64,000 nt of DNA from Pantoea rwandensis (GTDB taxonomy: Bacteria > Pseudomonadota > Gammaproteobacteria > Enterobacterales > Enterobacteriaceae), in assembly GCF_000759475.1 (NCBI RefSeq), contig NZ_CP009454.1, positions 3,100,001 to 3,164,000 on the forward strand, read 5' to 3'. Below the pieces are notes generated by a model, which saw only the letters and a program-made list of their open reading frames with translations, ran no database searches and was not told where the DNA came from. A program made the position numbers and the translations under genes. Shown here one piece after another: positions 50,341 through 55,234 of the stretch (position 1 is the first letter of the stretch; every line of letters starts with the position of its first letter).

Positions 50341-53300
50341 ATGAAAAGAATGTTAATTAACGCATCTCAGCAGGAAGAGTTGCGCGTTGCCCTTGTTGAC
50401 GGCCAACGTCTGTACGATCTGGATATCGAAAGCCCCGGACACGAGCAGAAAAAAGCCAATATCTACAAAGGTAAAATCACCCGTGTTGAACCCAGCCTTG
50501 AAGCGGCATTTGTCGATTACGGTGCTGAACGCCACGGTTTCCTCCCTCTGAAAGAAATTTCCCGCGAATACTTCCCTGCTAATTACAACGCACACGGCCG
50601 TCCAAACATCAAAGAGGTGTTGCGAGAAGGTCAGGAAGTTATCGTGCAAATCGATAAAGAGGAGCGTGGAAATAAAGGTGCGGCCTTAACCACCTTCATT
50701 TCTCTGGCCGGTAGCTATTTAGTCCTGATGCCGAATAACCCGCGTGCCGGGGGGATTTCCCGCCGTATCGAAGGTGACGATCGCACCGAACTGAAAGAAG
50801 CGCTGTCCGCACTGGAACTGCCAGACGGCATGGGCTTGATCGTGCGTACCGCAGGCGTTGGCAAATCTGCCGAATCGCTGCAGTGGGACCTGAGTTTCCG
50901 ACTGAAGCACTGGGAAGCGATCAAAAAAGCCGCTGATAGCCGCCCTGCCCCGTTCCTGATCCACCAGGAAAGCAACGTCATCGTGCGTGCCTTCCGCGAC
51001 TATCTGCGTCAGGATATTGGTGAGATTCTCATTGATAACCCGAAAGTGCTGGAGCTGGCGCGTCAGCATATTGCTGCGCTCGGTCGCCCGGACTTCAGCA
51101 GCAAAATTAAACTGTACACCGGTGAAATCCCGCTGTTCAGCCACTACCAAATTGAGTCGCAGATTGAATCTGCATTCCAGCGTGAAGTGCGCTTGCCTTC
51201 CGGTGGCTCGATTGTTATCGACAGCACCGAAGCACTGACCGCCATCGATATCAACTCCGCCCGTGCAACACGCGGTGGCGACATCGAAGAGACGGCCTTC
51301 AATACTAACCTCGAAGCGGCTGATGAAATCGCTCGTCAGTTGCGCCTGCGCGACCTCGGCGGCCTGATCGTCATCGACTTCATCGATATGACACCGGTTC
51401 GACACCAGCGCGCGGTTGAAAACCGTCTGCGTGAAGCGGTTCGTCAGGATCGTGCGCGCATTCAAATCAGTCACATTTCACGTTTCGGTCTGCTGGAAAT
51501 GTCGCGTCAGCGTCTTAGCCCATCATTGGGTGAATCCAGCCATCACGTCTGCCCACGTTGTAGCGGCACCGGCACCATCCGTGATAACGAATCGCTCTCG
51601 CTGTCTATCTTGCGTCTGATTGAAGAAGAAGCGCTGAAAGACAACACCAAAGAAGTGCATGCGATTGTACCTGTGCCCGTCGCCTCGTATCTGCTGAACG
51701 AAAAACGTGATGCAGTCAGTGCGATCGAGAAACGCCAGGGTGGTGTGCGTGCCATCATCGTGCCAAACGATCAGATGGAAACGCCACATTACTCTGTGCT
51801 GCGCGTGCGCAAAGGCGAAGAGACGCAGACACTTTCTTACCACCTGCCGAAATTGCATGAAGCTGAGATGGCACTGCCTTCGGAAGAAGAGCATGCCGAA
51901 CGTCGTCGCCCTGAGCAGCCAGCCCTGGCCGCCTTTGTGATGCCTGATGCGCCGCCTGCGCCGGTTGAAGTGGAGAAAGAGAGCCACTCTGCGGTTAAAG
52001 CGGATGCAAAACCGGCAGCTGCCGCTGCGGCGCCTGCCGTTGCCAGCACTGGCTTTGTCGCTCGCCTGTTGGGCGGTTTGAAAAAACTGTTTGCTGGCGA
52101 TGCACCTGCTGCTGCACCTGTTGAAGCTAAACCGGAAGAGAAAGCCGCTGAAAGTGAGAACAATCAGCAGCGTGGTGACCGCCGTAACAACCGTCGTAGC
52201 AATAATCGTCGCGATCGCACTCCGCGCAACGGTGAAAATGCTCAGGGTCGCGAAGGCCGTGAACCGCGCGAAGCTCGTGAGCCACGCGAATCGCGTGAAC
52301 CACGTGAAGCCCGTGAGCCGCGTGACAATCAGGACAATCGCCGTAATAAGCGTCAGAACGAGCCTCGTGGCGAACGTCCAGCGTTGACCGATGAGCAGCT
52401 GCAGCAGCGTGATGAGCAGCAGCAACAGCGTCGTGAGCAGCGTGCTGAACGCCAGCGTCGTCGTCAGGATGAGAAACGTAATCAGCAGCAAGATCAGAAA
52501 GTCGCTGAAACCGTTGCTCAGACCGATATCGCTGATGAAAACGTTGCGCAGGAAGAAGAACGTGTGCAGGTCATGCCACGTCGTAAACAGCGTCAACTGA
52601 CCCAGCGCGTGCGCGTGGGTGATACCGGCGAAGTGGCGGCAGCCATCCCGGCACCCGCAGTCACTGAAGCGGTTGTAGAAAATGCACAGCGCGCTACATT
52701 CAATGAGCAACCTGAAGTCGCTCAGGATGAACAGGATGATAACGAGAACCGTGATAGCGCCAACATGCCGCGTCGCTCGCGTCGTTCACCACGTCATCTG
52801 CGCGTGAGCGGCCAACGTCGTCGTCGCTATCGTGATGAGCGTTACCCAACGCAATCTGCCATGCCGCTGGAATCGGCTGCGTCTTCTCCAGAGATGGCAT
52901 CCGGTAAAGTCTGGATTACCTACCCGGTTGCCCAGGCCCACGATCAGTTCTCCTCTCAGGAAGCGCTGAACGAAATGCCAGATTACAGCTATCAACATAC
53001 CGGTGAAGCGGACGCACTGCCGGTTGCGGCAGCAGCAGAACAGGTTGCACAGCCAGCAGCGCAAGAGGCTGTTCATCAGTCTGAGCCACAGGCACATACA
53101 GAAGTGCCTGTGGTGAACACCGATGACCTGACCCCAGTCGCTGCGCCTGTCAACGAAGAGCCTGCCGTGATTTCTGCCGCTGTTGAGCAGATTGCACAAC
53201 AAACCGCTGCTGAAGCCGTACCGGCCGATGAAGTGACAACGGCACCGGCTGAAACTGCCCTCACTAATCAAGTCGAAGATGTTCAGGCTGACGTCGCACC

Positions 53301-53838
53301 GGCTGCGGATGTTGTTGCTGCATCGTCTGAAGTGGCACCGGCTGCTGAAGTGGCGTCTGCATCGACTGAAACGGTTTCTGCTACTGAAGTGACACCGGCT
53401 GAAGCGGTTCCTGCTGCGGAGACTGCCGCACCACAGGCAAGCGAAGCAGTAGTAGCAGCAGCGCAAGCGCCTGCTGAAGTTGAGCCTGCTGTTGCAGCGG
53501 CTGAGCAAGCGCCTTCTGAAGTTGAGCCTGCTGTTGCCGCGCAAGTGGAAGAAGTACTGGCTGCACCAGTCGCTGCTGAAGCGCCTGCTGCACCGGTGAC
53601 TGAACCGCATGCGCCTGTTGCTGCACGTGATACCGCAGTGAGCAACGCTGAAACCCGCTGGAAGCATCACGCCACGGCGCCGATGACCAAAGCACCTGCT
53701 CCGGCATGGGAGCCAGAAGTCGTTCGTCACAGCGATTGGGTTCGCCCACCGTTTGACTTCGAAGGCCGTGGTTCTGCGGGCGGCCATAGCGCCACGCATC
53801 AGGCGACGGCACCGGCAACACGTCCGGAAAGCGTTTAA
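50341..53838 (+). CDS. rne: Ribonuclease E
   Basis: Essential endoribonuclease and scaffold of the RNA degradosome, 1165 residues against 1061 in E. coli. The catalytic half is colinear with E. coli: S1 domain (about 35-125), 5'-sensor and DNase I-like regions, magnesium ligands Asp303 and Asp346 (DFIDM), and the Zn-link Cys404 and Cys407 (CPRCSG). The non-catalytic half has the amphipathic membrane anchor [13 protein letters not shown] (about 574-586) and an arginine-rich RNA-binding region with an imperfect EPRE-A/S-R repeat (about 636-665). An expanded Ala/Glu/Pro/Val segment (about 880-1100) comes next. The C-terminal end [14 protein letters not shown] is the PNPase-binding region. Extra length lies in the disordered parts. 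Confidence 0.98.
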
Positions 53839-53863
53839 GTCTTAGTCGCTAATCAGCATTAAC

Positions 53864-53890
53864 AAAACCCCGACTGGTTCGGGGTTTTTT
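53864..53890 (+). terminator. Rho-independent terminator of rne
   Basis: AAAACCCCGA and TCGGGGTTTTTT form a strong stem with a 5-base loop and a U run, 26 bases past the rne stop. Confidence 0.9.
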
Positions 53891-53922
53891 ATTGCCTGTT
53901 GATCCTGCTCTTTCGCAGCATT

Positions 53923-54162
53923 AGGTGGTGATCTGGCAGAGTACACAAACAGACCGCTGCTCCGCATGAGGCAGGTGCGAAGAGGTAGTGATCTGGCAGA
54001 GTACACAAACAGACCGCTGCACCGCATGAGACAGGTGTGAAGAGGTAGTGAACTGGCAGATGACACAAACAGAGCGCTGCTTCGCATGAGGCAGGTGCGA
54101 AGAGGTGGTGATCTGGCAGAGTATGCAACCAGACCACTGTTCCGCAGGAGGCAGGTGCAATG
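53923..54162. repeat. Four tandem copies of a 60-bp repeat
   Basis: Units begin at 53923, 53983, 54043 and 54103 with no gaps. Units 1 and 2 share 56 of 60 bases; units 3 and 4 differ from unit 1 at about 6 and 8 positions. The best-kept core is GATCTGGCAGAGTACACAAA and CCGCATGAGGCAGGTGCGAA. Decay towards the right end suggests an old array with more recent copying at the left. It lies between the facing terminators of rne and flgL. Confidence 0.95.
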
Positions 54163-54185
54163 AACTGTGCGACGAAATGACAGGC

Positions 54186-54220
54186 AAAAAAAATCCCACG
54201 GCCCCAAAAGGCGGTGGGAG
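54186..54220 (-). terminator. Rho-independent terminator of the flgKL transcript
   Basis: On the minus strand a stem CTCCCAC... / ...GTGGGAT with inner pairing (CCGCC with GGCC-type bases, partly mismatched) is followed by eight U residues. It lies 49 bases past the flgL stop. Confidence 0.8.
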
Positions 54221-54268
54221 AAACTAAGCGCGCCCGGTTTAAGCACGCTCAAATTTTCAAGTCAGATC

Positions 54269-55234
54269 TTATGAATTCAGCTGGAACAGTGACATCTTCG
54301 ACATATCAGTGAAGGTCTTGTAAGACGCTTGCAGTGCTGTCTGTTGCATGGTGTAACTGGAAATGGCGGAGGTGTAATCGACATCCACCAAATCACTCAT
54401 TTGCGAGGTCATAATAGTATCGCGATCGTCACCCTGCGCATTCAGCGTGTCGAGCTCTGACAACTGTGTACCGACTGCAGAACGCACGGTCAAAACGTTG
54501 TTCAGTGAATTACTGAGGCCACGGTTGGTTTTATCCATCGCATCCTGGAACGTTTGTTTGGTCGCATCATCCGCATTGTCTTGTGGCACTTTAAGGGCCG
54601 CAATGGCACTGTCGAGCATATTAAAGACATTGGTCTCGCTCGCCGTTCCATCTGGCTCAGCTTTCGCATTGCTGGTAATCGACATGAACACAGAAGATCC
54701 CGTGCTGCTCACATCCATTGTGCGGCCATCATCGACTTTCTGCGTGATAGCCTGATCGCCGCCCACATAGCTCACGCCAGTGCCGGCAGTATCGGTGAAT
54801 GGCGCCGTATCGGTTTTGTATCCGGCAAAGATATAGCGACCATTACCATCCTGGCTGTTGGCCTGATTGAGCAATTGGGCGCGAATACCTTCCAGCTGGG
54901 TGGCGATAGAGGCACGGTCATCATCGCTAAGTGTGCCGGTAGAGCCATAAACAATCAGGGTTTGTGCATCCTGAATGCTACTGGTCGCGCCTTTAAGCGC
55001 ATTCTCTTCCATCGACAAGCTTTGATCCGCGAAACTACGCGCTGTCGCATATTGGGTACTTTTCGCCTGAGACTGCGACAGCACCACGGCACGAGAGGCC
55101 GCAATCGGATCATCCGATGGGTTGTTAACACGACGACCACTGGAAAGCTGTTCGCCCACTTTTAACCAGGAAGATTGCGAGTCAGTAATCCCGCGCACCT
55201 GCTGGTCAAAAATCATATTGGTACTAAGACGCAT
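54269..55234 (-). CDS. flgL: Flagellar hook-filament junction protein FlgL (HAP3)
   Basis: Joins the hook to the flagellin filament; exported by the flagellar type III system, so no signal peptide. The flagellin-like N-terminus MRLSTNMIFDQQVRGITDSQ with QLSSGRRVNNPSDDPIAASR and the C-terminal ISSYTMQQTALQASYKTF coiled-coil are present. Length is 321 residues (E. coli 317). It follows flgK by 18 bases in a two-gene unit. Confidence 0.96.
   Translation of the reverse strand: MRLSTNMIFDQQVRGITDSQSSWLKVGEQLSSGRRVNNPSDDPIAASRAVVLSQSQAKSTQYATARSFADQSLSMEENALKGATSSIQDAQTLIVYGSTGTLSDDDRASIATQLEGIRAQLLNQANSQDGNGRYIFAGYKTDTAPFTDTAGTGVSYVGGDQAITQKVDDGRTMDVSSTGSSVFMSITSNAKAEPDGTASETNVFNMLDSAIAALKVPQDNADDATKQTFQDAMDKTNRGLSNSLNNVLTVRSAVGTQLSELDTLNAQGDDRDTIMTSQMSDLVDVDYTSAISSYTMQQTALQASYKTFTDMSKMSLFQLNS

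Follow-up and report, generated by a model that had tools for sequence, protein, structure and literature searches.

The gap between rne and flgL of Pantoea rwandensis contains four head-to-tail, gap-free 60-bp units (53923-54162 of the window, the whole stretch of 64,000 nucleotides that was analyzed). This array is very probably an ordinary intergenic minisatellite, likely neutral DNA, that arose from slipped replication or unequal recombination. Either process could have let the array gain and lose units, and the spacer would tolerate such changes in length, since seemingly no part of the DNA between the two terminators has to be of a set length. No function of the array is visible in the sequence, and the visible constraint on the spacer appears to be limited to holding two terminators and an FlgO-like sRNA. 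Minisatellites are a known class, and the array is an instance of it, one of several intergenic tandem arrays in the genome.

The array was analyzed with TRF, which reported a period of 60, 3.9 copies, no indels and a score of 360 for the span 53923-54158, and a repeat search gave spacings of 60, 60 and 60 between successive repeats. The six unit pairs are identical at 56 (units 1 and 2), 54 (1 and 3), 52 (1 and 4), 52 (2 and 3), 48 (2 and 4) and 46 (3 and 4) of 60 positions, showing that unit 4 is clearly degenerate. These data confirm the gap-free array with an exact 60-bp period that had been described in the first-pass annotation, where the 56 identical bases of 60 given for the first two units were also exact. 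When the window was compared with itself at lags of 20-500, the top 120-nt self-match was the array, with 108/120 positions at lag 60. The sole match outside the array and the repeats in the rne coding region, among the 12 best self-matches listed, reached 71/120. No other self-match in the 64-kb window is as strong, so the array is not a product of chance. The repeats within the rne coding region lie in its C-terminal part and were located by TRF at 52249-52325, 52390-52441 and 53288-53370. The features of the gap and its borders are listed in Table 1.

Table 1. Genes, border elements and repeat units of the rne-flgL region (positions in the window).
Feature	Position	Strand	Basis or remarks
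rne (RNase E)	50341..53838	+	ORF list; rne is also the annotated facing gene in E. coli
rne terminator-like hairpin and T-run, rne-side border of the spacer	53864..53890	+	sequence, RNA fold, eight-species alignment
repeat unit 1	53923..53982	.	rne-proximal; best match of G039 unit 1 (55/60)
repeat unit 2	53983..54042	.	56/60 identical with unit 1
repeat unit 3	54043..54102	.	54/60 identical with unit 1
repeat unit 4	54103..54162	.	flgL-proximal, most degenerate; 52/60 with unit 1; positional counterpart of G039 unit 2 (49/60)
flgL 3' UTR, FlgO-like sRNA with terminator, flgL-side border	54186..54268	-	E. coli flgO position, RNA fold, sister identity
flgL	54269..55234	-	homologues at E up to 1e-60 in 58/61 genus genomes, own included

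The gap extends from the rne stop codon, which ends at 53838, to the flgL stop codon, which begins at 54269 (plus-strand coordinate). The terminator-like hairpin on the rne side is retained with changes in an alignment of eight species, and a second hairpin with a T-run was found on the flgL side at about 54186-54219. RNA folds of the rne flank (53835-53922) and of the flgL flank (54163-54268) gave z values of -2.48 and -2.95, respectively, against shuffled sequences. The facing terminators of rne and flgL noted earlier thus agree with sequence and folds, though a simple consensus terminator scanner listed none; by our reading this is because its rules ask for a stem without bulges and a T-run beyond it. 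Behind the two facing T-runs lie tails (53892-53899 and 54180-54187) that match each other, TTGCCTGT ... ACAGGCAA, and form an inverted repeat that bounds the spacer. The motif GCCTG is present on both sides of the spacer in 16 of 53 rne-flgL gaps.

In E. coli K-12 an sRNA gene, flgO (b4826), is annotated at the start of the flgL-rne gap. Passages of a 2023 paper describe FlgO as derived from the flgL 3' UTR and as strongly bound by Hfq (PMC10578931). The flgL 3' UTR in the window is the positional counterpart of E. coli flgO, with an only moderate match in the sequence alignment. This region is identical at 88/88 positions in the sister genome G039 (M004, JRUP01000050.1), and a local alignment with it was obtained in all 57 gaps examined, the weakest (25 nt only) in L127, a locus with a misplaced border. 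Therefore the conserved part of the gap is the UTR with the terminators and not the array; the FlgO-like sRNA is the neighbor of the array, placed as in E. coli, and is not the array itself.

Searches of the relatives with the unit, as the first-pass annotation had proposed, detected it in 2 of 61 genus genomes (E up to 0.001), its own and G039, both times between rne and flgL. G039 contains two units at the same place compared with four in P. rwandensis. The locus therefore stands as the candidate variable-number locus proposed earlier, with one genome per species compared. Unit 1 of G039 is identical with units 1-4 at 55, 52, 49 and 50 of 60 positions and unit 2 of G039 at 52, 49, 46 and 49; the two G039 units share 52/60. 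Unit 2 of G039 and unit 4 are found at the matching position and both have an ATG ending. The sequence CATGAG is common to units 1-3, CAGGAG is present in unit 4 and in unit 1 of G039, and CGGGTG in unit 2 of G039. The CATGAG pattern is suggestive of a spread of the inner units in this lineage. Together with the position and the ATG ending shared by unit 4 and unit 2 of G039, it points to a common ancestor with about two units, to which the inner units would have been added later, in this lineage, by in-register duplication. In a small tree of the units, units 1-3 are found together and the two G039 units are joined on a short branch, so that homogenization of the units within each lineage is possible. 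As unit 2 of G039 is also closer to unit 1 (52/60) than to its positional partner unit 4 (49/60), this order of duplications is a tentative one.

The interior of the G039 spacer was aligned with those of six close species (G021, G056, G017, G018, G049 and G035), and none of them gave a significant alignment in which an origin of the unit in an older spacer could be recognized. The scores of 10-18 are all below the 95% level of shuffles (16-21; 300 single-base shuffles per species), and the unit therefore cannot be traced beyond the two sisters. Between the sisters the units differ at 8-23% of positions over all eight pairs, and at 8% and 18% in the two positional pairs. Four-fold degenerate sites of four neighboring genes differ at 8-12% (identities between the sisters of 0.877 for rne, 0.920 for flgL, 0.909 for flgK and 0.918 for flgJ). 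No strong purifying selection is visible on the units from this comparison, which comprises few sites and units and makes the claim of neutrality a weak one.

The array is extremely unlikely to be what remains of a dispersed or mobile Pantoea/Erwinia repeat family, an origin considered in the first-pass annotation. Dispersed palindromic repeats with a different motif do exist in the P. rwandensis genome, but no second copy of the unit was found in its 4,327,607 bases (one contig), where the best other matches comprise 17 bases (E 5.9). Among the 61 genus genomes only G039 has the unit besides the P. rwandensis genome, at the same locus. Within the family 392 genomes were sampled, with at most two first-look candidates scored per genome, and one match was obtained, the P. 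rwandensis genome; the entries listed for this sample include four other genomes of the genus, and G039 is not among these. Matches at E up to 1 were present in 46 of 99 relatives (this genome counted among them), and besides P. rwandensis (G000) and G039 the best match was 26 bases long (E 0.02). The unit had no match in the plasmid, phage and E. coli genome collections, and one 28-base pattern from it had none in viral contigs. An origin of the unit from plasmids, phages or other mobile DNA was rejected, as there is no match in those collections.

A functional DNA element, such as several protein-binding sites or a buffer between the converging rne and flgL transcription units, is very unlikely, even though the array is placed between two facing terminator-like hairpins and inspection of sequence and folds revealed a weak dyad in units 1, 2 and 4, GTGATCTG with CAGACCGC or CAGACCAC. 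This dyad is broken in unit 3, the divergence of the units is close to the neutral rate or above it, and 59 of the 61 genus genomes have no match (E up to 0.001), some of them with only 12-20 nt between the T-runs. The DNA helix has 10.5 bp per turn. The 60-bp step corresponds to about 5.7 turns, which is not a whole number, so that binding sites repeated at this step would point to different sides of the helix. The protein-binding array suggested earlier is thus disfavored by the lack of visible constraint on the units and by a step out of helical phase. It is highly improbable as well that the array is transcribed, by read-through that would extend the rne 3' UTR or the FlgO-like sRNA, and serves as an RNA sponge or stabilizer. 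The adjoining flgL 3' UTR does match the Hfq-bound sRNA FlgO of E. coli in its place, but a terminator-like hairpin is present on either side of the array, and the fold of the whole array is no better than that of shuffles (z -0.12 for the minus and -0.81 for the plus strand). The earlier statement that the array itself is not a terminator is supported. Half-array pieces had z values from -0.33 to -1.74, the two-unit pieces of the plus strand folding slightly better than shuffles (-1.32 and -1.74). A comparison with Rfam gave 10 sub-threshold matches, none at the gathering score and none overlapping 53923-54162, and a consensus scan detected no promoter-like site. The earlier description of the gap as untranscribed is plausible. 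It is hardly credible that the array belongs to a small gene for a repetitive protein on the minus strand (ORFs of 82, 92 and 136 aa). No stop interrupts any of the three minus frames in the array, nor in the shorter array of G039, but open frames are expected here because a stop-free unit of 20 codons stays open when the period is divisible by three. The 136- and 92-aa ORFs had no homologue in a protein search of limited sensitivity, and the variable columns of six units are distributed over the codon phases as 7/9/6, without a phase; on these two grounds the gene reading is not supported.

The reading as a minisatellite is in line with what is described for bacteria. Passages of a paper on variable segments in E. 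coli count minisatellites among these segments, give replication slippage as the probable origin of variable segments that have short repeats at their flanks, and define a minisatellite by a motif of at least 20 bp present in tandem at least twice, with repeats at least 90% identical (PMC2884548). With 60 bp and 3.9 copies the array falls under the motif definition as worded there; the identity cut-off is reached by unit pairs 1-2 (56/60) and 1-3 (54/60), and four pairs are below it (52, 52, 48 and 46). Like bacterial minisatellites and VNTR loci, the array consists of imperfect head-to-tail units of tens of bases in a non-coding spacer, and its copy number differs in relatives; unlike in VNTR loci, this change in copy number is one between two species (4 compared with 2), with one genome for each. 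REP/BIME elements, described in passages of the same paper as short palindromes at many places of a genome (PMC2884548), share the intergenic location, whereas the array is confined to a single locus and has no strong palindrome. Membership in REP/BIME or another dispersed family was rejected on account of the single locus. Regular direct repeats are also a feature of CRISPR arrays; here, however, the units abut without spacers and the unit fills the whole period, which bears out the earlier statement that this is not a CRISPR array. In a literature search made up mostly of papers outside subscription we found no report of the rne-flgL array locus, and no paper was returned when tandem repeats were searched for together with convergent genes.

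Tandem arrays are present in other intergenic gaps of the P. rwandensis genome. In 872 kb of it, 11 of 358 gaps contain an array with a TRF score of 80 or more, the rne-flgL gap included; a gap here is a stretch of 60-1500 bp that separates ORFs no shorter than 450 nt, which were picked by a greedy ORF rule and not by a gene finder. One of these 11 arrays is a run of 89-bp copies that are candidate tRNA genes by appearance. At G000:C1:84205-84438 a 7-mer is repeated 33 times, and at 2890910-2891902 a 462-bp unit is repeated 2.1 times. The genome also contains a dispersed palindrome, GTCGCCATAAATGGCG, with 30 matches at 27 places (three counted on both strands) when at most one mismatch was allowed, compared with 2 matches for the reversed control. 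A variant of GTCGCCATAAATGGCG forms a 44-bp tandem array at G000:C1 3078484-3078708, and related palindromes are found in the rne-flgL gaps of three relatives (L073, L078 and L105).

We regard it as unlikely that tandem repeats are born again and again in the rne-flgL spacer throughout Pantoea. According to such a mechanism the facing tails (TTGCCTGT ... ACAGGCAA) would fold as an inverted repeat during replication and the DNA between them would slip, so that unrelated arrays of 60-, 33-, 8- and 7-base units would recur. Tandem arrays with a score of 50 or more are indeed present in 7 of 57 rne-flgL gaps. Their units measure 60 bases in two species, 33/68 in one gap, 8 in three gaps with a different motif each, and 7 in another, the short repeats of the other species being unrelated to the 60-bp array. 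We compared these gaps with four control convergent gaps. At a score of 80 or more the counts were 5/57 compared with 1/85 (p 0.04) and at 50 or more 7/57 compared with 6/85 (p 0.38); in the nearest 30 genomes they were 4/30 compared with 1/85 (p 0.02) and 5/30 compared with 6/85 (p 0.15), respectively. For gaps of at least 130 bp we obtained 5/55 compared with 1/41 (p 0.23) at the higher and 7/55 compared with 6/41 (p 1.0) at the lower score, and in the nearest 30 genomes 4/29 compared with 1/41 (p 0.15) and 5/29 compared with 6/41 (p 1.0), all p values in this comparison being too small if anything, given the relatedness of the genomes and the fact that a single 60-bp family accounts for two of the arrays. 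A hotspot is thus hinted at, not supported: the unmatched counts at score 80 favor it, and significance is lost once the gaps are matched for length. In the P. rwandensis genome itself convergent gaps are not richer in arrays (3/68 compared with 8/290 of the other gaps, p 0.44; 3/75 compared with 8/316 with ORFs of at least 300 nt). In L090 (G029) the rne-flgL gap contains an imperfect 33/68-bp tandem array, the units of which resemble the flgL terminator tail by eye.

The gap sample was obtained as follows. FlgL was found in 58 of the 61 genomes, and G041 (L118), which ends inside flgL and has a 1452-nt gap, was left out, giving 57 gaps. Loci L079 and L119 (contig ends) and L089 and L127 (misplaced borders) were kept in the 57 and dropped for the spacer lengths of 53 gaps; with these 53 gaps, arrays were present in 5/53 (score 80) and 7/53 (score 50). 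The control gaps were recovered from 30, 21, 20 and 14 of 30 loci each (85/120), and the 30 loci were the top scorers among 59, 61, 50 and 61 matching genomes. They are shorter on average than the rne-flgL gaps, and some of the wide ones may contain unannotated genes.

Taken together, the array is of little importance in itself and would serve at most as a typing marker for this species pair. Across the genus, the spacer between the back-to-back terminator-like hairpins varies from 12 to 345 nt (T-run to T-run, 53 gaps), and the hairpins and the FlgO-like sRNA are kept. Comparison of these spacers thus helps to tell the functional part of the rne-flgL gap from filler.
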